In this document: positions 2,427 to 11,807 of the stretch, piece by piece
Layout of the letters: each line of letters begins with the position of its first letter
How positions within the stretch are numbered: position 1 is the stretch's first letter
Source of the DNA: Lentzea waywayandensis
GTDB taxonomy: Bacteria; Actinomycetota; Actinomycetes; Mycobacteriales; Pseudonocardiaceae
DNA: 64,000 nucleotides
Direction: 5' to 3'
Assembly (NCBI RefSeq): GCF_900115955.1
Contig: NZ_FOYL01000006.1
Location: forward strand, 153,849-217,848
Translations under genes and position numbers: made by a program
Notes under the pieces: model-generated
Database searches by the model: none
Told to the model about the DNA's origin: nothing
The model's input: the letters and a program-made list of their open reading frames with translations, nothing else

Positions 2427-3062
2427 TCAGCGGGCATGCGGCAGCGTCGTGAACTCGTCGACCTGGGGCAGGTCGTGCCCGAGCCGGTCCCGCTTCGCCG
2501 TCAGGTAGGCGATGTTGTGGGCGTTGGGGGTCATCAACGACGGCACGCGCGCCGTCACCGAAATTCCGTGGGACTCCAGCGCCGCGATCTTGTCCGGGTT
2601 GTTGGACATCAGCCGCACGGACTGCACGCGCAGATGCTTGAGCACGCGAGCCGCGGGGGAGTAGTCGCGCACGTCGACGGGCAGACCGAGCGACGTGGCC
2701 GAGTCCAACGTGTCCAGTCCGGCGTCCTGGAGCACGTGCGTGCGAATCTTCGACACCAAACCGATTCCGCGGCCTTCGTGTCCGCGCAGGTAGACGAGGA
2801 TGCCATTGCCCTCACGCACGATGGTGTTCAGCGCGGCGTCGAGCTGCTCGCCGCACTCACAGCGCATGGCGGCGAAGATGTCTCCGGTCATGCACTCGGA
2901 GTGGATGCGCACGAGGACGTTCTCACGCAGCTTCGTCTTGCCGTAGACCAGCGCCATGTGCTCGTGACCGTCCGCGCGGAACGCGACTGCGCGGAAGGTG
3001 CCACGCCGTGTCACCAGATCGGACTCCGCAACGTCTTCCTCGTTGAAGGCCTGTTCGAACAT
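2427..3062 (-). CDS. ribA: GTP cyclohydrolase II family enzyme, predicted formamide-releasing (FAPy) type
   Basis: A stand-alone 211-residue GTP cyclohydrolase II domain without the RibB domain. The zinc ligands are intact as Cys57, Cys68 and Cys70 (SECMTGDIFAAMRCECG), followed by RGHEGRGIGL and the phosphate-binding MSNNPDKI. The residue equivalent to E. coli Tyr105 (in IRAYALQD) is His109 here (IRTHVLQD). In Streptomyces coelicolor SCO6655 that position is Met, and the enzyme stops at the formylated intermediate FAPy instead of releasing formate; by inference this protein may do the same. I chose ATG 3062 because AAGGGGACCGGAG precedes it; a longer frame to 3125 lacks such a site. It is divergent from the pterin-synthase-like gene. 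A housekeeping riboflavin role remains possible. Confidence 0.88.
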   Translation of the reverse strand: MFEQAFNEEDVAESDLVTRRGTFRAVAFRADGHEHMALVYGKTKLRENVLVRIHSECMTGDIFAAMRCECGEQLDAALNTIVREGNGILVYLRGHEGRGIGLVSKIRTHVLQDAGLDTLDSATSLGLPVDVRDYSPAARVLKHLRVQSVRLMSNNPDKIAALESHGISVTARVPSLMTPNAHNIAYLTAKRDRLGHDLPQVDEFTTLPHAR

Positions 3063-3154
3063 CTCCGGTCCCCTTGTCACCAGGCGCCTTCCGAACGTGC
3101 AGCTACGCTCGGATGGAGGTCGCACCGTAACCCGACCGCACAGCGGAGGTCATC

Positions 3155-3565
3155 CTGTTCAGCATCACCGTCCGCGATCACGTGATGATCGCCCACAGTT
3201 TCCGCGGCGAAGTCTTCGGTCCGGCACAACGTCTGCATGGAGCAACGTTCCTGGTGGACGCAACGTTCAAACGTGCTGAGCTCGATTCGGACAACATCGT
3301 CGTCGACATCGGACTCGCGACCCAGGAGCTGAACAAGGTCCTGGCCGCCTTCAACTACCGCAACCTGGACGAAGAACCCCAGTTCGCGGGCATCAACACC
3401 TCCACGGAGTGGCTCGCGAAGCACATCGCGGACCAGCTCGCGGACAAGATCTCCGAGGGTTCTCTGGGTGAGGGCGCTCACGGGATCGATGCGATCGCCG
3501 TCACACTTCACGAGTCCCATGTGGCGTGGGCCGGCTACGAACGTGCACTTCGTCCTTCCCGCTGA
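3155..3565 (+). CDS. 6-pyruvoyltetrahydropterin/6-carboxytetrahydropterin synthase-like protein
   Basis: A PTPS/QueD-fold protein of 136 residues. Family sequence starts with [15 protein letters not shown], so translation probably begins at CTG 3155, five bases after GGAGG (3145-3149); the first ATG/GTG (3182-3185) would remove a conserved strand. The active site is altered. His14 and His28 match zinc ligands, but the third (HxH) is Ala30, and the protein has no cysteine, so it lacks the usual catalytic Cys. [11 protein letters not shown] and the glutamate near the C-terminus (AGYE) are kept. Streptomyces coelicolor SCO6650 is a related PTPS homologue near SCO6655. It opens a four-gene operon with overlapping genes. 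The reaction is unknown. Confidence 0.82.
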
Positions 3566-4514
3566 CGTCGAGGATCCGGGCAGTCCCAGCGGCGGCAACG
3601 TCTACGACCTGCGCGTGAGCGCGGGCCTGAACCGTCTGACCGTCGCTGGTGACTGGCCGCGTCCGAGCGACACCACCGCGTTGTGGCAAACGCTTGCGGC
3701 GATCCCCGACGGTGACGTCGTGCTCCTCGACGGCCTGGTCGGCTGTGGAGTACCCGAAGTCGTCGTCCCTCACGCCCGACGGCTCAGGCTCGCCGTGCTC
3801 GTGCACCTGCCGCTCGCCGACGAGACAGGCCTCGACCCGGAGGTGGCCCGCGACCTCGACGCGCGGGAAGGGCAGGTCCTGAGGGCCGCGAGCGCAGTCG
3901 TCGCGACCAGTCCGACGGCCGCCCGCGACCTCGAGCGACGGCACGGGCTCGACCACGTCCACGTCGTCGTTCCCGGCACCGATCCGGCGCCCCCGGCGCG
4001 CGGCACGGACGGCGTCCACCACCTGCTCTGCGTCGCGTCCATCACACCCCGCAAAGGCCACGACCTGCTGGTCGGAGCGTTGCGGCGGATCGAACGCGAC
4101 TGGCGGCTGACCTGCGTGGGCCCGCACCGGCCGTTCCTGCGCGAACTCCCGCGAGACGAGCGCGTCAGCTTCCCCGGACCGCTCGCCGGCGAGGCTCTGA
4201 CCAGCGCGTACGACCGCGCGGACCTCTTCGTGCTGGCCTCCAGGAACGAGACCTACGGCATGGTCGTCACCGAGGCGCTCGCCCACGGTCTGCCGGTCAT
4301 CGCGAGCGCTGTCCCCGACGCGCTCGGCGACGGCGGTCTGCTCATTCCCGCCGGGGACGAAAATGCATTGGAAGCTGCACTAACGCGCTGGTTTCAAGAT
4401 CAGGATTTCCGGGCTGAACTGCGCTCGAAGGCGCTCGCCCGGCGAGCCGTTCTGTCCACTTGGGACGAATCCACAGAGGACCTGCGGAGGGTGCTGGCTA
4501 CGCTCCGGCCATGA
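3543..4514 (+). CDS. Glycosyltransferase family 4 (GT-B fold)
   Basis: A 323-residue GT-B glycosyltransferase. The start region [22 protein letters not shown] has the glycine-rich acceptor-side loop of family 4. The donor half carries [15 protein letters not shown] and the E-x7-E type motif in [23 protein letters not shown]. The enzyme should transfer a sugar from a nucleotide-sugar to an acceptor made by its neighbours. GTG 3543 is preferred because the protein then begins directly with the first beta strand; ATG 3522 in the same frame is an alternative. The start lies inside the end of the pterin-synthase-like gene (23-base overlap) and the stop overlaps the methyltransferase start by four bases, so translation is coupled. 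Confidence 0.9.
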
Positions 4515-5290
4515 CCTTCGCCCCGGAATGGCTGGCACTGCGGGAAATCGCCGACGCGACCGCACGCTCGACCGAGCTCGCTGATGTGGTCCGCGAAACT
4601 CTGGTGAACCGAAACCCCCTGACGATCCGTGACCTCGGTTGTGGAACGGGATCGATGGGACGATGGCTCGCCGGCAGGCTCGGCGGCGTACAGCACTGGG
4701 TGCTGCACGACCGCGACCCCCGGCTGCTCGGGCTGGCGGAGGCCGGCATGAGCGCCTTCGAGAACGTCACCGTCGAGACGCGTGAGGGCGACCTCACGTC
4801 ACTCAAAGCCGCCGACATCGCAGGCGCTGACCTGGTCACTTGCTCCGCGTTGCTCGACTTGCTCACTGCTAACGAGATGAACGCTCTGGCGGTTGCATGC
4901 GTAGAAGCACATGTGCCCGCTCTGTTCACGCTCTCGGTGGCAGGCCGGATCGACATCGATCCGGCCGAGCCGCTCGACGCCGCCTTCCAGGACGCGTTCA
5001 ACGCTCACCAGCGCCGCGTCGTGGACGGGCGCCGTCTGCTCGGACCTGATGCTCCTGCCGCTGCCGAAGAGGCATTCGTGGCAGCCGGCGCTTCGGTTCG
5101 GACGGCTCAGAGCCCCTGGCGGATGCACGGCGATGCCCTGCAGTCCGAGTGGCTGAAGGGCTGGGTCGACGCCGCGGTGGAGCAGGAACCCACACTCGCC
5201 ACCGAGGCCTCCGAGTACCTGCGCCGCAGGTCAACGGCCTCCGTGACGGTCCACCACGTCGACCTGCTAGCGATACCGAGGGCTGTCTGA
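4511..5290 (+). CDS. Class I SAM-dependent methyltransferase
   Basis: A 259-residue Rossmann-fold methyltransferase. Motif I is IRDLGCGTGSMGRWLAGRLGG at about residues 38-58, followed by an acidic motif II position (HDRDPRLLGLA) and DLVTCSALLDLL for the post-motif strand. The C-terminal third is probably the substrate-binding cap. The ATG overlaps the glycosyltransferase stop (ATGA), and the stop overlaps the next membrane protein (TGATG), so it is the third gene of the operon starting at 3155. Its substrate is probably the product of the neighbouring GTP-derived and glycosyl steps, which is inference from position only. Confidence 0.9.
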   Translation: MTFAPEWLALREIADATARSTELADVVRETLVNRNPLTIRDLGCGTGSMGRWLAGRLGGVQHWVLHDRDPRLLGLAEAGMSAFENVTVETREGDLTSLKAADIAGADLVTCSALLDLLTANEMNALAVACVEAHVPALFTLSVAGRIDIDPAEPLDAAFQDAFNAHQRRVVDGRRLLGPDAPAAAEEAFVAAGASVRTAQSPWRMHGDALQSEWLKGWVDAAVEQEPTLATEASEYLRRRSTASVTVHHVDLLAIPRAV

Positions 5291-6249
5291 TGAAGAAGTT
5301 CTGGCCGTGGCTTCGCCTGGTGCTGGCGTTGGCGATCCTGGTGGCCCTGGGCGTGCGCCTGGGCACCGGGGCGTTCCTCGACGGACTGCGCGCGATCGAC
5401 GCGTTCTCCGTCGCCGCCGCACTGGCGATCGGGCTCGTGACGACGGTGCTCAGCGCGGGTCGCTGGGTGCTCGTCGCGCGCCGCCTCGGCCTGTCGCTGT
5501 CCCTGAAGTCCGCGGTCAGCGACTACTACCGCGCCCAGCTCGTCAACGCCGTGCTGCCCGCGGGCGTGCTCGGTGACGTGCATCGCGCGGTCAACCACGG
5601 CCGTGAGTCGGGCGACGTCGGACGGGGTGTGCGCGCCGTGTTCTTCGAGCGCTTCGCCGGTCAGATCGTGCTCATCGGGATCGGGCTCGCGGTGCTGCTC
5701 ACGCACCCCGCGCCCGGCCTCGACCTCGCTCCGGACGGCACCACCGCCGGGCTCGTTCTCGCCGGTCTGGCCGTTGCCGCGGTCGTCGGCTGGCAGATCG
5801 GGCCGGTACGCCGCGTCCTGGTCCACACCCTCGCGGACGGCATCAGGCTCCTGTCGCTGCGGACCTGGCCCGCCGTCATCGGGCTGTCCGCCGCCACGGT
5901 CGCCGGTTACGTCGCGATGTTCCTGGTGGCCGCCCGCGCCGCCGGGTCGGACGCCACGATCGCCCAGCTCGCGCCGGTCGTCGTGCTGGCGCTGCTGATC
6001 ATGGCCATCCCGGTGAACATCGGCGGGTTCGGCCCGCGCGAGGCGTTCCTCGCGGTGGCGTTCGGTGCCGCCGGTCTGGGCGCCGCGCAGGGCTTCACCA
6101 CCGGCATCGTCTACGGCGTGCTGGCGCTCATCGCCGCGCTGCCCGGCGCGGTCGTGCTGTTCCTCTCACGCCGGAAGACCGAAAAGGTCCAGGTAGTGAC
6201 GGAACGACTCGGTCAGCCCCGCGAGCAGGAGCTCGCCCTTGCGCGCTGA
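5290..6249 (+). CDS. YbhN/UPF0104-type integral membrane protein (flippase-like)
   Basis: A 319-residue polytopic membrane protein of the lysylphosphatidylglycerol-synthase transmembrane-region family (YbhN, UPF0104). It has a signal-anchor helix (residues 6-24) and about eight hydrophobic helices. Family features are the first cytoplasmic SAGRWVLVARRLG segment, the AVLPAGVLGDVHRAV loop, the FFERFAGQ motif and the late PVNIGGFGPREAFLA loop. Members of this group are linked to lipid transport across the membrane or act as partners of glycolipid pathways. It is the last gene of the operon from 3155. Its final 84 bases overlap the convergent creatininase-family gene, an unusually long overlap. 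Confidence 0.88.
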   Translation: MKKFWPWLRLVLALAILVALGVRLGTGAFLDGLRAIDAFSVAAALAIGLVTTVLSAGRWVLVARRLGLSLSLKSAVSDYYRAQLVNAVLPAGVLGDVHRAVNHGRESGDVGRGVRAVFFERFAGQIVLIGIGLAVLLTHPAPGLDLAPDGTTAGLVLAGLAVAAVVGWQIGPVRRVLVHTLADGIRLLSLRTWPAVIGLSAATVAGYVAMFLVAARAAGSDATIAQLAPVVVLALLIMAIPVNIGGFGPREAFLAVAFGAAGLGAAQGFTTGIVYGVLALIAALPGAVVLFLSRRKTEKVQVVTERLGQPREQELALAR

Positions 6250-6855
6250 CGCGAGCGAGGGCCGCCCGATGACGCCGGAGGACGTGTACGGCGCCAGACC
6301 CAGGGTGAGCATGTGCCGCCGGTCCTCCGCCAGGTGGTCAGAGTCTTCATAACCGGGACGGATCAGATCGGGGTGCGCGTGCAGCAGGATCGAGGTCTCC
6401 AGCTCACCGGCGTGCATGTCGCTGTACGCCGAGGTCTCGATGCCGGCCTTCTCCCGCGCGAACGCCCAGTCGTCCCGTCCGGGGAACAACGCCAGACCCT
6501 CGCCCTCCTGCACGATGTTGGACAGCACGTAGTTGCCGCCGTGGCCGTTGACGAGGACCACGTTCGTGACACCGTTGCGCCGCAAGGACTCCGCGATGTC
6601 CGTGACCACTGAGATCAACGTGCTCGCGGAGATGCTGACGGTCCCGGGCCAGCCGGCGTGCTCCTGCGAGCAGGAGAACTGGATCGGCGGCAGCAGCCGG
6701 ACCGGATACCTCGCCGCGATCTCCGACGCGATGGTCCAGGCGATCACCGAGTCCGTGGCCAGCGGCAGGTGCGGGCCGTGCTGCTCGGTGCTGCCGACCG
6801 GGAGCACGGCGACGCTCCTGCCGCGGACGTCGACCGTGGTGTCACTCGGAAACAT
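6166..6855 (-). CDS. Creatininase-family amidohydrolase (candidate FAPy deformylase)
   Basis: A 229-residue metal-dependent amidase of the creatininase family. Metal and catalytic motifs are complete: PVGSTEQHGPHLPLATD near residue 20, VNGHGGN near 105 and SDMHAGELETS near 145. The family includes creatininase, MftE and the archaeal ArfB, which removes the formyl group from FAPy made by GTP cyclohydrolase III. Here it sits among a GTP cyclohydrolase II with an altered switch residue and a RibD-like reductase, so deformylation of FAPy is a reasonable inference. ATG 6855 is used; TTG 6873 in the same frame is an alternative. It is coupled to the upstream dehydrogenase by a 14-base overlap. Confidence 0.88.
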   Translation of the reverse strand: MFPSDTTVDVRGRSVAVLPVGSTEQHGPHLPLATDSVIAWTIASEIAARYPVRLLPPIQFSCSQEHAGWPGTVSISASTLISVVTDIAESLRRNGVTNVVLVNGHGGNYVLSNIVQEGEGLALFPGRDDWAFAREKAGIETSAYSDMHAGELETSILLHAHPDLIRPGYEDSDHLAEDRRHMLTLGLAPYTSSGVIGRPSLASARKGELLLAGLTESFRHYLDLFGLPA

Positions 6856-7819
6856 GAGCCTGACCGTAGTCAATCCGGTGGCACAGAGCCGGAATCTCGC
6901 TATCGGCGAGCCTCGGCATCACGTCCGGGAGCTCCTCGAACGCGCTGTGGCCCGTGATCAGCGCCTCGAACCTGTCGTCGGCCAGCAGATCGAGCGCGAC
7001 CGCCATGCGTTCGGCGTAGGTGCGGTCCGGGCGGCCGACCGTGCCGACCTGGCTGCTGCGGATCGTGAGCCGGCGCGAGTGGAAGAACTCGCCCAGCGGC
7101 ACGGAGATCTTCCTGTCGCCGTACCAGCTCAGCTCGATCACGCGGCCTTCCGGCGCGAGCAGGTTCAAAGCGGTGGTGAGGCCGGGTTCGGTCGCACTGG
7201 CGTGGAAGACCAGATCACAGCCGTCGAGAGCGTTGCCCGGCAAGGCGAACCCGACACCGAGCTTGCGGGCGATCTCCTCGCGAGCCGGATCGGCGTCCAC
7301 GAGCTCGACACGGGCACCGGGGAACGTCGCCAGCACGGCCGCGATGCTCGACCCGACCATGCCGCCGCCGACCACCGCGATCCGGTCGCCGATCAGCGGC
7401 CGCGCGTCCCACACCGCGTTGACCGCGGTCTCCACGGTGCCCGCCAGCACCGCTCGTTCGGCTGGAACGGCCTCGGGCACGAGCGTGACCGAGGTTTCCG
7501 GGACCACGTAACGAGTCTGATGTGGATAGAGGCAGAACACCGTGCGCCCGCGCAGGTTCCCGTGTTCGACGACGCCGACGTTGAGGTACCCGTACTTCAC
7601 CGGCCACGGGAAGTCGCCCTCCTGGAAGGGGGCCCGCATGACCGCGTACTGGTTCTCCGGCACGCCACCGCGGAACACGAGGGTCTCCGTGCCGCGGCTG
7701 ACGCCGGAGAACAGCGTGCGCACCTCGACCTCACCGGGACCGGGCTCGGCCAGTGTGACCTGCCGAACTTCCCCTTTTCCCGAATCATTGAGCCAAAAGG
7801 CACTCGCCGTACGTGTCAC
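6842..7819 (-). CDS. MDR-family dehydrogenase without standard catalytic zinc ligands
   Basis: A 325-residue zinc-binding-dehydrogenase-like protein. The Rossmann part is clear (RIAVVGGGMVGSSIAAVLATF, then VELVDADPAR). In the N-terminal domain the usual CGxCGTD catalytic motif reads SGVSRGTET, and no GHE motif follows, so the classical zinc site is missing. This pattern resembles BchC-like dehydrogenases. GTG 7819 is preceded by GGAGG eight bases upstream. It is divergent from the phosphatidyltransferase gene across only 41 bases and coupled to the creatininase-family gene, so its substrate is probably an intermediate of this cluster. Confidence 0.85.
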   Translation of the reverse strand: MTRTASAFWLNDSGKGEVRQVTLAEPGPGEVEVRTLFSGVSRGTETLVFRGGVPENQYAVMRAPFQEGDFPWPVKYGYLNVGVVEHGNLRGRTVFCLYPHQTRYVVPETSVTLVPEAVPAERAVLAGTVETAVNAVWDARPLIGDRIAVVGGGMVGSSIAAVLATFPGARVELVDADPAREEIARKLGVGFALPGNALDGCDLVFHASATEPGLTTALNLLAPEGRVIELSWYGDRKISVPLGEFFHSRRLTIRSSQVGTVGRPDRTYAERMAVALDLLADDRFEALITGHSAFEELPDVMPRLADSEIPALCHRIDYGQAHVSE

Positions 7820-7860
7820 TCACAACACCTCCGCCGCACGAAGTTCGTTAGGGGCACCTG

Positions 7861-8595
7861 ATGATCACACTTCAGCACACCAGGACGGCACCCGTCCTCC
7901 GGGAGCCTGCCATCTGGGCGGGACTTCAGGTCCTCGCGCTGGGCGTGGTCGCCGCCACAACCGGTCTCGGGCCGCTCGGCTGGGCGGCCGGTCTGGCCTA
8001 CGGGTTCGCCACGTGGGCGTTCCTCGGCTACGGCATGCAACGGCACCGCACCTCGGCGTTGGGACCGGCTGACCGCGTCACGCTGGCCCGTGGCCTGATG
8101 GTCGGCGCTGTGACCGCTTTGGTCGCGGACCGCGCCGGGCAGGACGTGCCGGTCGCGCTGGTCGTGACGCTGGCGGCCGTCGCGTTGTCACTCGACTGGG
8201 TGGACGGTCAGGTCGCTCGCCGCACGGGCACCTCGACCGCTCTGGGAGCCCGGTTCGACATGGAGGTCGACGCGTTCCTGATCCTCGTGCTCAGCGCGTA
8301 CGTCGCCGTGCACATGGGTCCGTGGGTGCTCGCGATCGGGCTCATGCGGTACGTGTTCGTGGCCGCTTCCTGGCGTTTCCGCTGGATGAACGCACCGCTG
8401 CCGGGTAGCTACGCCCGCAAGGTCGTGGCCGCGGTCCAGGGGATCTTCCTCGTCGTCGCGGCTTCCGGCCTGCTGCCGTACGCGGCCGTGCTCGTCGGTC
8501 TCGCGCTGGCATCGCTGGTGTGGTCGTTCGGTCGCGATGTGCTCTGGCTGTGGAACAACGCCGCTGTCCCGGTGGGACAATCCCGCCATGCCTGA
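7861..8595 (+). CDS. CDP-alcohol phosphatidyltransferase
   Basis: A 244-residue integral membrane enzyme that should transfer a phosphoalcohol from a CDP-activated donor to a polar acceptor. The diagnostic signature D-x2-DG-x2-AR-x8-9-G-x3-D-x3-D is complete as DWVDGQVARRTGTSTALGAR followed by FDMEVD (about residues 117-142). About six transmembrane helices surround it. The extra N-terminal tail (first 20 residues) is hydrophilic. It begins a two-gene operon with the DoxX-like gene, overlapping it by eight bases, and is divergent from the dehydrogenase. It suggests that the cluster product is attached to, or built into, a phospholipid. Confidence 0.9.
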   Translation: MITLQHTRTAPVLREPAIWAGLQVLALGVVAATTGLGPLGWAAGLAYGFATWAFLGYGMQRHRTSALGPADRVTLARGLMVGAVTALVADRAGQDVPVALVVTLAAVALSLDWVDGQVARRTGTSTALGARFDMEVDAFLILVLSAYVAVHMGPWVLAIGLMRYVFVAASWRFRWMNAPLPGSYARKVVAAVQGIFLVVAASGLLPYAAVLVGLALASLVWSFGRDVLWLWNNAAVPVGQSRHA

Positions 8596-8989
8596 GCAGA
8601 CCTCGACCGCGGCGAAGATCGGCAACATCGTCGTCTGGATCCTGCAGATCGCGCTCGCCGTGCAGTTCGTGATGAACGGCTACGCGTTGTTCACCGACTC
8701 GTTCGTCGCCAAGTTCGACGACATCGGCTTCGGCCAGTGGTTCCGCTACTTCACCGGTGTTCTGGAGATCGGTACCGCGATCGGCCTGCTCATCCCGCGC
8801 ATCTGCGGCCTCGCGGCGCTGGGCCTCGCGGGCATCATGGCCGGCGCGGCGCTGACCGAGCTGACCCTGGTCACCAACGGCGGGTTCGACGACGCGCTGA
8901 TGCCGCTGATCTTCATGGTGTGGGCGCTGGTGATCGCGGTCTACCGCCGCGAGCAGATCTTCGGCGTGTTCAAGCTCGTCAGGAAGTGA
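8588..8989 (+). CDS. DoxX-family small membrane protein
   Basis: A 133-residue protein with four hydrophobic helices: VVWILQIALAVQFVMNGYAL, the YFTGVLEIGTAIGLLI segment, LAALGLAGIMAGAALTEL and LMPLIFMVWALVIAVY. The spacing and the GxxxIG loop match DoxX-like proteins, whose biochemical roles are mixed and often unknown. ATG 8588 lies inside the end of the phosphatidyltransferase gene, so the two are coupled. The 3' end overlaps the convergent RibD-like gene by 11 bases. Confidence 0.85.
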   Translation: MPEQTSTAAKIGNIVVWILQIALAVQFVMNGYALFTDSFVAKFDDIGFGQWFRYFTGVLEIGTAIGLLIPRICGLAALGLAGIMAGAALTELTLVTNGGFDDALMPLIFMVWALVIAVYRREQIFGVFKLVRK

Positions 8990-9632
8990 CTTTCGGGAAG
9001 TAGCGGAGCACCGCGACGTCCCCGACTTTCGTGACGTCCTCCAGGTGGAATCGGCGTGCCGGTCCACCGGGGAATTCGGCGGGATTCACGAAACGCGGGG
9101 CCGTCGCCTGCCCGATCAGCATCGGTGCCACCGCCACCCGGATCTCGTCGGCCAGTCCGGCTTGCAGGAACGCCGTGTGAATGCTCGTGCCGCCTTCGAC
9201 CATGAGCTTTCTCACTCCGCGTGCGCCGAGATCGTCCAGAATCTCTGAGAATTCGCTGAAGGTCTTCGTTTCGGCGAGATGCCCGACCGTGGTCTCCGCA
9301 CACCGCGAGTAGACCAACCGTTCGCCGCCGCAGTGCCAGAACCGCAGGTCAGGATCTAGTTGGCCACTCCGGGTGACGGTGACTCGCAGCGGGAACTCCG
9401 GTTTGCCGTCCGCTATTCTCCGCGCGCGTCGTTCGTCGCTGTAGACGAGCAGTCGCGCGTTGTCGCGGCGCAACGTCTCGGCCCCGGCCAGAATCGCGTC
9501 CGACTCCGCGCGCATCCGGTCGACGTGATCGAAGTCCTCGTCGTTGGAAAGCGGAAACCTCTCGGTGCCGCGATCGTCGATGTGGCCGTCGAGGCTGACG
9601 GCGACGCTCAGCAGAACGTGCGGGCGGGTCAC
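8979..9632 (-). CDS. RibD-type pyrimidine reductase domain protein
   Basis: A 217-residue stand-alone RibD C-terminal (dihydrofolate-reductase-like) domain. It begins with RPHVLLSVAVSLDGHIDD and carries AGAETLRRDNARLL and KLMVEGGTSIHTAFLQ, the NADPH and substrate signature regions. The deaminase half of bifunctional RibD is absent. In riboflavin synthesis such reductases convert the ribosyl side chain of a diaminopyrimidine phosphate to ribityl. Within this cluster it could act after GTP opening and deformylation, which is inference. GTG 9632 is chosen because the conserved sequence starts there; upstream frame is non-conserved. It is divergent from the sulfatase-like gene. Confidence 0.88.
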   Translation of the reverse strand: MTRPHVLLSVAVSLDGHIDDRGTERFPLSNDEDFDHVDRMRAESDAILAGAETLRRDNARLLVYSDERRARRIADGKPEFPLRVTVTRSGQLDPDLRFWHCGGERLVYSRCAETTVGHLAETKTFSEFSEILDDLGARGVRKLMVEGGTSIHTAFLQAGLADEIRVAVAPMLIGQATAPRFVNPAEFPGGPARRFHLEDVTKVGDVAVLRYFPKVTS

Positions 9633-9711
9633 GAGAACCGATGGTAGAGCAGGTGAACCGTTCGCGGGCCGCGCCGCGTTTACCTCATAGGGTCCGGAAA
9701 GGGGAATCTCG

Positions 9712-11292
9712 GTGAGGATGTTGCTGCGGCGGACGGTCACGGTCCTGGCAGGGCTGTTCGTGTTGTTCGTGCTCATCGCACCGAGCGACCTCGAGAAGTT
9801 CTCCTTCGAGTCGTTCCTGCGCGTGCCGCTCGAAGGTCTCATCGGCGTGATGGTGCTGGTGCTGCTGCCGGACCGGTTCCGCAAGCCCGCGGCCATCGTC
9901 GGTGGCATCGCGCTGGGCCTGTTCACGGTCGTGAAGATCATGGACATCGGCTTCGACATGGTGCTGTACCGGCCGTTCGACCTCGTGCTGGACTGGCCGC
10001 TGCTGGTGCCGGCCATCGACTTCGTGGACGTGACGTTCGGCCGCTTCGCCTCGGTCCTGGCCGTCGCGCTCGCGGTCGCACTGGTCGCCGGGATCGTGTT
10101 CCTGGCGGCGATCTCGGTGCAGCGCCTCAGTTCGGTGGCCGCCGGACGGCGCCCGATCGCGATCCGCGCCGTGGCTCTGGTCGCCGTCGCCTGTGTTTCG
10201 CTTGCGGTGCCTGGGGTTCCGGTCTACTCCGACGCCGCCGCCACCTCGTTGGTGGATCACGCGCGCCGCGTGCAAGCCGGTCTGAACGACCGGGAGGTGT
10301 TCGCGGCGGAGGCTTCGGTCGACGCGTTCCGCGGCCACCCCGGGCTGCTGTCCTCGTTGCAGGGCAAGGACGTCGTCTTCACGTTCGTGGAGAGCTACGG
10401 CAAGTCGGCCCTCGACATGCCGGACGTCGCGGCCAAGCTCGCTCAGGGAAACGATCGCCTGAAGGCGGCCGGTTACTCGGCCCGCTCCGCGTACCTGACC
10501 TCGCCGACCGCGGGCGGTGGCAGCTGGATGGCGCAGGCGACGTTGCTGTCCGGGCTGTGGATCGACAACCAGCAGCGCTACCGCAACCTCGTGGCCTCCG
10601 ACCGGCTGACGCTGCCGCGGGCGTTCCGCGAGTCGTCGTGGCGCTCGGTCGGTGTCGTCCCCGGCATCACGCAGGCGTGGCCGGAAGGCGACTTCTTCCA
10701 CTACAACCAGATCTACGCCGCCCAGGACCTCGGCTACAAGGGCCCGCGCTTCGGCTACGCGACGACGCCAGACCAGTTCACCTTGGAGTCGTTCCAACGC
10801 AACGAGCGCTCGAAGGCCCACGGCCCGGTGATGGCGGCGATCCCGATGGTGTCCTCGCACGCGCCGTGGTCACCGACGCCGGACTCGGTGGAGTGGGACA
10901 AGCTGGGCGACGGCTCGATCTACTCGACCATGCCCGCCTCGAACGACCCGCCGGAGTCGATCTTCGGCCGCGACCCGGCGGCCGTGCGCGCCGACTACGC
11001 GCACTCCATCTCGTACTCGCTGGAGTCCGTGCTCTCCTACGTCGAGAAGTACGGCGACGAGAACCTGGTGATGGTGTTCCTCGGCGACCACCAGCCCGCG
11101 CAGATGGTGACCGGCGAAGGAGCGTCGCGGGACGTGCCGATCACCATCGTCGCCAAGGACCCGGCCGTGATGGACCAGGTCGCGGGCTGGAAGTGGGACG
11201 ACGGGATCAAGCCGGGAGGGTCGGCCCCGGTGTCGCGGATGAGCGACTTCCGGGACCAGTTCCTCTCGACCTTCAGCCCGCCGAACGACTAG
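9712..11292 (+). CDS. Membrane-anchored sulfatase/phosphoglycerol-transferase-like protein
   Basis: A 526-residue protein with about four N-terminal helices (residues 1-165) and an extracytoplasmic alkaline-phosphatase-superfamily domain. Seen in it are VVFTFVESYGKSAL near residue 225 (metal and nucleophile region), TSPTAGGGSWMAQATLLSG and the late metal motif VFLGDHQPAQ near residue 460. Relatives include LTA synthase and OpgB-like phosphoglycerol transferases as well as sulfatases. An outer-face transfer or hydrolysis of a phospho-group on a lipid-linked product would fit the neighbouring phosphatidyltransferase. The frame starts at GTG 9712, with an alternative ATG at 9718, behind GGAAAGGGGAA. 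The stop overlaps the DinB gene by four bases. Confidence 0.85.
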   Translation: MRMLLRRTVTVLAGLFVLFVLIAPSDLEKFSFESFLRVPLEGLIGVMVLVLLPDRFRKPAAIVGGIALGLFTVVKIMDIGFDMVLYRPFDLVLDWPLLVPAIDFVDVTFGRFASVLAVALAVALVAGIVFLAAISVQRLSSVAAGRRPIAIRAVALVAVACVSLAVPGVPVYSDAAATSLVDHARRVQAGLNDREVFAAEASVDAFRGHPGLLSSLQGKDVVFTFVESYGKSALDMPDVAAKLAQGNDRLKAAGYSARSAYLTSPTAGGGSWMAQATLLSGLWIDNQQRYRNLVASDRLTLPRAFRESSWRSVGVVPGITQAWPEGDFFHYNQIYAAQDLGYKGPRFGYATTPDQFTLESFQRNERSKAHGPVMAAIPMVSSHAPWSPTPDSVEWDKLGDGSIYSTMPASNDPPESIFGRDPAAVRADYAHSISYSLESVLSYVEKYGDENLVMVFLGDHQPAQMVTGEGASRDVPITIVAKDPAVMDQVAGWKWDDGIKPGGSAPVSRMSDFRDQFLSTFSPPND

Positions 11293-11807
11293 CCCATGGT
11301 CTTCTGACCGTCGATCGTCTCGCGGATGATGTCCGCGTGGCCCGCGTGCTGCGAGGTCTCGGCCACGATGTGCACGAACACGCGCCGCGCCGACCACGTC
11401 TTGCCCTCGGGGAACCACGGGGCGGCCGGCAGCGCGTGGGAGAGGTCCATGTCGACCGTCTCGACCAGCTTGTCGGTGTAGGCCGCGACCTCGTTGTAGC
11501 GGGCGATGATGCTCTCCAGCGTCTCGCCCGGCTCCATCCGGAAGTTCGCCTCGTGGTTCTCGTAGTCCTTCGACTCGGGGTCGGACTCCATCGCCGAGGT
11601 GCCGTGCTCGATGAACTTGACCCAGTTCTCCTCGACCGACGCGACGTGCTTGATCAGACCGCCGATGCTCAGCGCGCTGGCCGTCGGGCTCGACGCCGCC
11701 TGCTCGTCGCTCAGGCCCTGCGCGGTGAACGTCAGGAACCAGCGGTGCTGCTTGAGGGTCTCGAGCAGGTCCGCGCGCTCGCCGGTGAGGATCTCGGTGG
11801 TGGTCAT
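11289..11807 (-). CDS. DinB-family protein (DUF664)
   Basis: A 172-residue four-helix DinB-like protein. The metal-binding histidines typical of DUF664/mycothiol-dependent members are visible in IKHVASVEENW and in HIVAETSQHAGHADIIRETIDG near the C-terminus. Members are bacillithiol- or mycothiol-dependent transferases or unknown hydrolases. ATG 11807 lies behind an AAGGACAGAAGCG stretch. A decayed relative lies at 12730, so a DinB duplication seems to have occurred here. It converges on the sulfatase-like gene with a 4-base overlap. Confidence 0.88.
   Translation of the reverse strand: MTTTEILTGERADLLETLKQHRWFLTFTAQGLSDEQAASSPTASALSIGGLIKHVASVEENWVKFIEHGTSAMESDPESKDYENHEANFRMEPGETLESIIARYNEVAAYTDKLVETVDMDLSHALPAAPWFPEGKTWSARRVFVHIVAETSQHAGHADIIRETIDGQKTMG

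Follow-up and report, generated by a model that had tools for sequence, protein, structure and literature searches.

A widely shared gene cluster that joins putative GTP-opening enzymes to glycosyl, methyl and phospholipid-type transferases

Does a run of eleven densely packed genes in Lentzea waywayandensis, some resembling flavin and pterin enzymes and others resembling sugar, methyl and phospholipid transferases, encode one pathway, and what could this pathway make? The genes lie at positions 2427-11292 of a 64,000-nucleotide stretch of contig NZ_FOYL01000006.1 (hereafter the window), in a host genome of 10.15 Mb. They encode a GTP cyclohydrolase II (GCHII), a PTPS-like protein, a GT4 glycosyltransferase, a methyltransferase (MT), a YbhN-type membrane protein, a creatininase-family amidase, an MDR dehydrogenase (ZnDH), a CDP-alcohol phosphatidyltransferase (CDPAP), a DoxX-like protein, a RibD-type reductase and a membrane enzyme called sulfatase (here LtaS-like). 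The original prediction proposed that a first set of these enzymes opens and reduces GTP, while a second set decorates the compound and attaches it to lipid. Our analysis indicates that the eleven genes are almost certainly one copy of a widespread pathway; a reading in which three modules lead from GTP to a lipid-linked product is, taken as a whole, somewhat favoured.

Co-occurrence and spread of the cluster families

The window was compared with 101 other loci found by their PTPS-like gene and chosen, from a pool of more than 160 genomes with a PTPS-like match, to spread over families. One hundred of these loci belong to the window's class and one (L018) to another class of the same phylum; two (L078 and L079) come from one genome, and several are cut by contig ends. 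The neighbourhoods were scored with hidden Markov models (HMMs) built from the window's families. The results showed that ZnDH and GT4 were each present in 99 of the 102 loci, followed by YbhN (89), CDPAP (84), MT (73), GCHII (71), RibD (67), the LtaS-like enzyme (57), creatininase (35) and DoxX (10). Leaving DoxX aside, a locus holds between three families (2 loci) and all ten (10 loci), and their order and strand differ between loci. Thirteen control loci centred on other PTPS-family genes (12 weak PTPS matches and L029; three are short stretches) contained no ZnDH, GT4, MT, YbhN, CDPAP, LtaS-like or creatininase gene, and RibD and GCHII were found in two of them. Judged by these controls, the co-occurrence exceeds chance. 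The PTPS-like protein itself occurs in all 24 same-genus genomes compared, the window's own included, and, at an E-value of 1e-10, in 112 of 348 genomes of the order and 57 of 394 genomes of the class.

Spacing, distances and fusions also link the families. On family lists that hold one family per reading frame and miss fused or overlapping genes, the median gap between neighbouring family matches was 46 bases, and the protein distances correlated with those of ZnDH for PTPS (r 0.92), YbhN (0.91), MT (0.89), GT4 (0.88), CDPAP (0.87), the LtaS-like enzyme (0.77), RibD (0.72) and GCHII (0.53), the best of 200 shuffles staying below 0.18 in each case. Moreover, several families share one open frame: 27 loci join CDPAP to the LtaS-like enzyme, the two matches lying 0-75 residues apart, three join GT4 to MT (L107, L165 and L183), three GCHII to RibD, one creatininase to RibD (109 residues apart) and one YbhN to the LtaS-like enzyme; the fused frame in L169 was checked with Pfam. 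By these fusions the genes fall into three modules. The check proposed at the outset, co-occurrence of all eleven families, thus speaks strongly for one pathway and holds for ten of them, which travel together in seven phyla with congruent distances and fusions; DoxX is a lineage-specific accessory, its ten loci all belonging to the window's family (label f1).

The cluster was followed beyond this class with the ZnDH alignment as query in a named species collection, where at least 572 loci were confirmed; the counts below concern the best 80 of these 572, ranked by likeness to the Rubrobacteria-type ZnDH. PTPS was present in 73 of them, GT4 in 72, RibD in 58, MT in 54, CDPAP in 45, the LtaS-like enzyme in 35, YbhN in 28, GCHII in 25 and creatininase in 7. 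The ZnDH, PTPS and GT4 genes occurred together in loci of Pseudomonadota, Actinomycetota, Spirochaetota, Chloroflexota, Myxococcota, Gemmatimonadota and Acidobacteriota, and the Wenzhouxiangella locus (L159) contained all ten families. ZnDH relatives were also found in 28 plasmid records, 11 of which, eight of them haloarchaeal, were opened. Nine families stand consecutively within about 8.8 kb on the pAt plasmid of Agrobacterium tumefaciens, and a Streptomyces fungicidicus plasmid carries eight. In the eight haloarchaeal plasmid loci, PTPS lies beside ZnDH in seven (one broken); six have GT4, five CDPAP and two creatininase. Several also carry annotated methyltransferases, whose HMM scores are weak. 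At least the core of the pathway is therefore present in both Bacteria and Archaea.

Some of these loci have features of their own. Seven ZnDH relatives stand without PTPS (L122, L126, L129, L130, L131, L164 and L181) and may reflect a variant form of the cluster, its decay or a different role for the dehydrogenase; L130 and L131, from Candidatus Contendobacter, retain CDPAP and an LtaS-like gene. In Microbacterium sp. SGAir0570 (L207), seven families lie on a mobilizable plasmid of 59 kb, with genes for recombinase and fluoride export close by. On Haloarcula marismortui pHMA411 (L203, 7985-8388) the PTPS-like gene is unannotated and seemingly frame-broken; it is open in H. sinaiiensis (L213). 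In Natrarchaeobaculum sulfurireducens (L206, 6995-9455), the genes after ZnDH encode a hypothetical protein and an IS5 transposase; the cluster looks as though an insertion had cut it. A Gfo/Idh/MocA oxidoreductase overlaps CDPAP in three Haloarcula plasmid loci (L208, 4569-5918; L209 and L212, 4179-5918) and may be an extra archaeal step.

Within the window, gene calls and Pfam matches to each named gene bore out the predicted tight packing, with overlaps at starts, stops and 3' ends (Table 1). MT starts at 4511, inside the end of GT4 (stop 4514); the creatininase start (about 6855) overlaps the ZnDH stop (6842), and the DoxX start (8588) overlaps the CDPAP stop (8595). The 3' ends overlap between YbhN (stop 6249) and creatininase (stop 6166), between DoxX (stop 8989) and RibD (stop 8979), and between the sulfatase-like gene (stop 11292) and an MST gene (stop 11289). 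This MST/DinB protein (11289-11807) and an amidohydrolase on the other side (1207-2388) were rejected as parts of the system, as among 29 clustered stretches each adjoins the cluster in no more than three, the window and two loci of the same genus.

Table 1 Genes of the cluster in the window, with position, strand and supporting matches
Gene product	Position	Strand	Match
GCHII (RibA-like), stand-alone, His at the E. coli Tyr105 position	2427..3062	-	Pfam GTP_cyclohydro2 199.7 bits; NCBIfam ribA
PTPS-like protein (SCO6650 family)	3155..3565	+	Pfam PTPS PF01242 76.2 bits; PDB 3d7j E 1.3e-59
GT4 glycosyltransferase	3519..4514	+	Pfam Glyco_trans_1_4 91.6 bits; PDB PimA/MshA-type matches
Class I S-adenosylmethionine (SAM) methyltransferase (MT)	4511..5290	+	Pfam Methyltransf_25 37.4 bits
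YbhN / flippase-like membrane protein	5287..6249	+	Pfam LPG_synthase_TM 100.8 bits
Creatininase-family amidase, predicted formamidopyrimidine (FAPy) formamide hydrolase	6166..6855	-	Pfam Creatininase PF02633 212.6 bits
MDR dehydrogenase (ZnDH)	6842..7819	-	Pfam ADH_zinc_N 32.5 bits
CDP-alcohol phosphatidyltransferase (CDPAP)	7861..8595	+	Pfam CDP-OH_P_transf 49.4 bits
DoxX-like membrane protein, lineage-specific accessory	8588..8989	+	Pfam DoxX_2 50.9 bits
Stand-alone RibD_C reductase, start not fixed	8979..9650	-	Pfam RibD_C 121.1 bits
Membrane enzyme, alkaline phosphatase superfamily, LtaS/EptA-type fold, called sulfatase	9712..11292	+	Pfam Sulfatase 23.6 bits, just below cut-off 25

A probable route from GTP to a diaminopyrimidine

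Full reaction of GCHII requires the Tyr at position 105 of the E. coli enzyme. The GCHII of the window passes the TIGR00505 (ribA) cut-off (212 against 205.85 bits) and conserves the zinc cysteines C62, C73 and C75 in a 20-row alignment. At the switch position it carries His, as against Tyr in the separate RibBA of the same genome, which agrees with the altered switch residue first noticed. The enzyme is expected, from this switch residue, to stop at the FAPy stage. Among the 102 loci, 34 have a non-Tyr GCHII (His 18, Met 13, Leu 2 and Gln 1), and all 34 contain a creatininase, compared with none of the 36 loci with a Tyr GCHII. The non-Tyr enzymes form one clade on a quick tree, which held 33 of these rows (L044 was not among them). 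This match of residue and creatininase was therefore set aside as independent evidence, since the tree requires just one change; the switch residue drifted within the clade while the creatininase stayed.

Other loci appear to have acquired the opening step differently. The GCHII rows as a whole split into several lineages on the quick tree, which, together with the low distance correlation reported above, suggests that the GTP-opening activity was recruited more than once. Directly upstream of ZnDH in four of the eight haloarchaeal loci lies a GTP cyclohydrolase III (Pfam GCH_III, 271.7-292.7 bits), a family unrelated to GCHII that makes FAPy, and two haloarchaeal loci without it have creatininase. 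SCO6655, a GCHII of Streptomyces coelicolor, is reported to stop at FAPy. The coupling of creatininase to non-Tyr GCHII fits such a halt, as well as the formamidase role reported for BrbF. This creatininase-type formamidase is needed for riboflavin in Sinorhizobium (PMC9478397).

The creatininase of the window is the sole creatininase match of its genome. It scored below the NCBIfam cut-offs of both ArfB (38.9 against 180 bits) and its best model, MftE (139.5 against 172 bits), and conserves E34, H36, D45, H115 and E163 over nine rows, residues with metal-binding roles in this family. The enzyme is predicted to be a FAPy formamide hydrolase. As for the RibD-type reductase, its best NCBIfam model is TIGR01508, at 121.3 bits below the cut-off of 186.45, and it is nearest to the archaeal-type 2,5-diamino-6-ribosylamino-pyrimidinone 5'-phosphate reductases (PDB 5xv5, 6p8c and 2azn). 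Pfam found RibD_C and no deaminase domain in this protein, so the 2-amino group of its substrate should be retained. Other RibD_C domains are present in the host genome, one in a 579-aa frame near RibBA.

The first module would then work as follows. The non-Tyr GCHII would open GTP to FAPy, as its switch residue and the reported behaviour of SCO6655 suggest; the creatininase would strip off the formyl group; and the RibD-type reductase would reduce the ribosyl group to a ribityl chain, which would yield 2,5-diamino-6-ribitylamino-4(3H)-pyrimidinone 5'-phosphate with the 2-amino group kept. The coupling of GCHII to creatininase and the GTP cyclohydrolase III of the archaea back the earlier proposal that the first set opens and reduces GTP, and the pathway very likely starts by converting GTP to a diaminopyrimidine. 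A folate bypass replacing GTP cyclohydrolase I was ruled out, as FolE was present in 19 of 20 host genomes, the sole miss being 82% complete.

Proposed pterin-like and membrane stages

The PTPS-like protein offers a link between the first module and the decorating enzymes. Its closest solved relative is SCO6650 (PDB 3d7j). Its likely start is the CTG at 3155, which stands behind GGAGG; the codon aligned with this position is CTG in 10 matches, ATG in 52, GTG in 38, TTG in 24 and two others. A PTPS-like gene annotated from a later GTG (window 3155-3187) would lose a conserved His. Window-type proteins carry IAHS and HGAT and have lost one of the three zinc His (AAH, HGH); HGH is retained in rows L111-L121 and in the six Rubrobacteria-type rows, and HSH occurs in six haloarchaeal rows. 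Read against L029, the window protein has Ala in the column of the catalytic Cys and Asn-Tyr in place of Asp-His, and other rows show different replacements. The Glu of HES, WES, WED or HET is kept in all rows shown except the cut-off row L166. In PTPS this Glu anchors the pterin by binding its 2-amino-4-oxo ring, and a retained 2-amino group would fit its conservation.

The dehydrogenase likewise departs from its annotation. The named model nearest to ZnDH is BchC, far below its cut-off, and by eye, from known motifs, ZnDH appears to lack the usual catalytic-zinc Cys and His. It may oxidise the ribityl chain, after which the PTPS-like protein might close or shape a pterin-like ring; these are the least certain steps of the scheme. 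If C1' is reduced first and C2' then oxidised, the result would be the keto compound that the Amadori step of GTP cyclohydrolase I also produces; this compound would close to a dihydropterin. Whether the product has a pterin-like ring is, in our estimate, an even question, and the FolB gene described below is no more than a hint toward it. GT4 would then add a sugar and MT a methyl group, the families being shown and the substrates assumed. GT4 adjoins PTPS in most loci, and the NCBIfam GT4-type matches of the window's protein all fall below their cut-offs.

The third module faces the membrane. CDPAP conserves D115, D118, G119, A122, R123, G132, D136 and D140 in a 27-row alignment. An AlphaFold model of the LtaS-like enzyme built with 63 sequences reached a mean pLDDT of 93.9 (37 for a single-sequence model) and has long N-terminal helices. 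Foldseek placed this model closest to LtaP/LtaS, then to MCR-1, GacH and EptC/EptA, with sulfatases among the lower matches; the match to LtaP had an E-value of 3.1e-11 and a moderate query TM-score of 0.40. The modelled fold class is clearly LtaS/EptA-type. Across the 63 rows E227, D459 and H460 are invariant and T266 is conserved in at least 90%; these residues are candidates for the Glu, Thr nucleophile and Asp-His metal set of LtaS/EptA-type enzymes. The earlier description called the protein a membrane sulfatase-like enzyme; its fold lies nearest to LtaS/LtaP, GacH and EptA-type enzymes, and true sulfatases rank lower. From folds and fusions, CDPAP would attach a lipid phosphate to the product, which would then be flipped by the YbhN protein, and the LtaS/EptA-like enzyme would pass a phospho-headgroup to an acceptor outside the cell.

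Such lipid linkage and export would apply in most hosts, not in all. The lipid or envelope part of the proposed nucleobase-derived glycolipid or exported molecule draws support from the flippase-like gene, from the fusions of CDPAP with the LtaS-like enzyme and from the fold of that enzyme; six Rubrobacteria-type loci, which lack these genes, speak against it. The product itself we still infer, and we consider a lipid-linked or surface-attached one slightly the better bet. Beside the Rubrobacteria-type core stand divergent genes for FolB and a PlsC-like acyltransferase (L025, 11663-12991), a Pfam check having been made in L025; their blastp families recur in six of six such loci. A bolder proposal, which we regard as speculative and unlikely to hold in every part, is that bacteria and halophilic archaea share a pterin route free of GTP cyclohydrolase I (C1' reduction by RibD, C2' oxidation by the MDR dehydrogenase and closure on the PTPS-like scaffold), the two redox steps standing in for the Amadori step. 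The pterin would then be glycosylated, methylated, joined to phospholipid and brought to the envelope by the flippase-like and LtaS-like proteins, as a new class of envelope-bound molecule with redox or light activity.

Should the product be a pterin or diaminopyrimidine bound to lipid or to the envelope, it would represent a novel type of surface molecule or cofactor. It would also explain why S. coelicolor retains a GCHII that reportedly stops half-way. The hosts include soil actinomycetes, rhizobia, Agrobacterium, Halomonas and Haloarcula, and such wide retention suggests that the product is probably useful. The current gene names (6-carboxytetrahydropterin synthase, zinc-binding alcohol dehydrogenase, sulfatase and creatininase family) are misleading.

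Alternative readings and known systems

Several observations weigh against a single route from GTP to a lipid-linked product. Congruent distances would also follow from plain vertical descent, and the 34 of 34 coupling of GCHII to creatininase represents a single evolutionary event, because the non-Tyr enzymes form one clade; in addition, four proteobacterial loci (L143, L148, L159 and L184) combine a Tyr GCHII with creatininase. Among the 102 loci, 31 lack GCHII, 35 lack RibD and 11 lack GCHII, RibD and creatininase, some of them at contig ends, so that the pathway would there start from elsewhere or differently. RibD is absent from seven of nine Streptomyces-like loci (label f5, g8; the name is presumed) and was not found near the eight haloarchaeal loci. 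PTPS is missing from 7 of the best 80 named ZnDH loci, and the window-type protein lacks the catalytic residues and one zinc ligand. Myxococcota, Gemmatimonadota and Acidobacteriota are each represented by one metagenome bin. Finally, the six Rubrobacteria-type loci contain RibD, ZnDH, PTPS and GT4 and, by HMM, no MT, YbhN, CDPAP or LtaS-like gene, so the core does not everywhere include lipid linkage. The alternatives are that the membrane stage joined at a later time, or that what the core makes has a use of its own.

The last observation is also the starting point of the strongest rival, in which the core makes a soluble, glycosylated and methylated pterin (or a pyrimidine) resembling the pterin glycosides of cyanobacteria and Chlorobium, and the membrane genes have the sole task of exporting this compound or of serving some nearby lipid. 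In these six loci the RibD-ZnDH-PTPS-GT4 core comes with a methyltransferase after GT4 (in L025 a different one) and adjoins a gene of the FolB family (dihydroneopterin aldolase; Pfam-checked in L025), and GT4 and MT form a single frame in the three loci named above. Pteridine glycosyltransferases are known (PMC5683033). However, CDPAP is present in 84 of the 102 loci, shares its frame with the LtaS-like enzyme in 27 and tracks ZnDH in its distances (r 0.87), and we regard a purely soluble product as possible but rather unlikely.

A lipid-linked product of one pathway is also preferred over the chance proximity of a pyrimidine pathway and an independent lipid pathway. The Rubrobacteria-type loci hold the first without the second, and order and strand vary between loci, as two processes would allow; yet the same ten families meet in distant phyla despite this variable order, and the distances of YbhN, CDPAP and the LtaS-like enzyme track those of ZnDH, which makes chance neighbours improbable. 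Less probable still is a redundant supply of riboflavin or F420, with GCHII, creatininase and RibD as extra flavin-precursor copies. These three enzyme types do have counterparts in the first steps of archaeal-type flavin and F420 synthesis, and the creatininase-type BrbF is needed for Sinorhizobium riboflavin (PMC9478397), but the genome has a separate Tyr RibBA with a RibD_C match in the 579-aa frame nearby, and the steadiest partners in the 102 loci are ZnDH, PTPS and GT4 rather than GCHII (71), RibD (67) and creatininase (35); ribH and ribE are not annotated in the 11 opened plasmid loci and were not searched elsewhere. The queuosine or 7-deazapurine pathway implied by the NCBI name 6-carboxytetrahydropterin synthase, which reflects the PTPS/QueD fold family and is used in Agrobacterium, Streptomyces and Haloarcula records, is hardly credible, given a QueD score of 33.9 against a cut-off of 89.25 bits, the absence of the catalytic Cys and Asp-His, and the lack of annotated QueC and QueE in the 11 opened plasmid loci, the only place where they were looked for.

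Overall, the cluster as one pathway is strongly supported and far wider than first proposed, while its chemistry beyond the diaminopyrimidine, the product included, is a matter of inference. The open-licence literature, which omits most subscription papers, yielded no description of the complete pathway, of how widely it occurs or of what it makes.

Parts of it resemble known systems. The proposed first module parallels archaeal ArfA-ArfB-ArfC (GTP cyclohydrolase III, formamide hydrolase and reductase) and Sinorhizobium BrbF in taking GTP to FAPy, followed by creatininase-family deformylation and RibD-type reduction, and four haloarchaeal copies of the cluster contain GTP cyclohydrolase III itself; in contrast to these systems, the bacterial clusters open with GCHII and add ZnDH, the PTPS-like protein, GT4, a methyltransferase and membrane enzymes. 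A diversion of extra GCHII and RibD copies from flavin to a special metabolite, with methylation, is familiar from the toxoflavin cluster, which is not known to have a PTPS, ZnDH, GT4, CDPAP or LtaS-like gene. In S. coelicolor, SCO6650 and SCO6655 are known as single proteins and not as a pathway, although Streptomyces-like loci have six genes in the span that begins with PTPS and ends with GCHII, which fits the numbers 6650-6655. By this gene spacing, SCO6652 should be the methyltransferase of the cluster. SCO6655 is listed as a GTP cyclohydrolase II among genes with a negative correlation between expression and predicted flux (r -0.61; PMC2853524), and SCO6652 is tabulated with genes in a survey of expression changes during development (PMC3610822).

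The synthesis of pterin glycosides in cyanobacteria and Chlorobium (PTPS, sepiapterin reductase and pteridine glycosyltransferase) likewise combines a PTPS-fold protein, a reductase or dehydrogenase and a sugar transferase. The Chlorobium glycosyltransferase is described as GT-1 and AviGT-4-like (PMC5683033), and by this description it may stand near the cluster's GT4. The cluster differs in having no canonical PTPS active site, a GCHII or GTP cyclohydrolase III as feeder, and lipid-type genes. Its LtaS-like enzyme shares its predicted fold with LtaS/LtaP, GacH and EptA; unlike them, it sits with a CDPAP, in a shared frame in 27 loci, and in a GTP-derived pathway.

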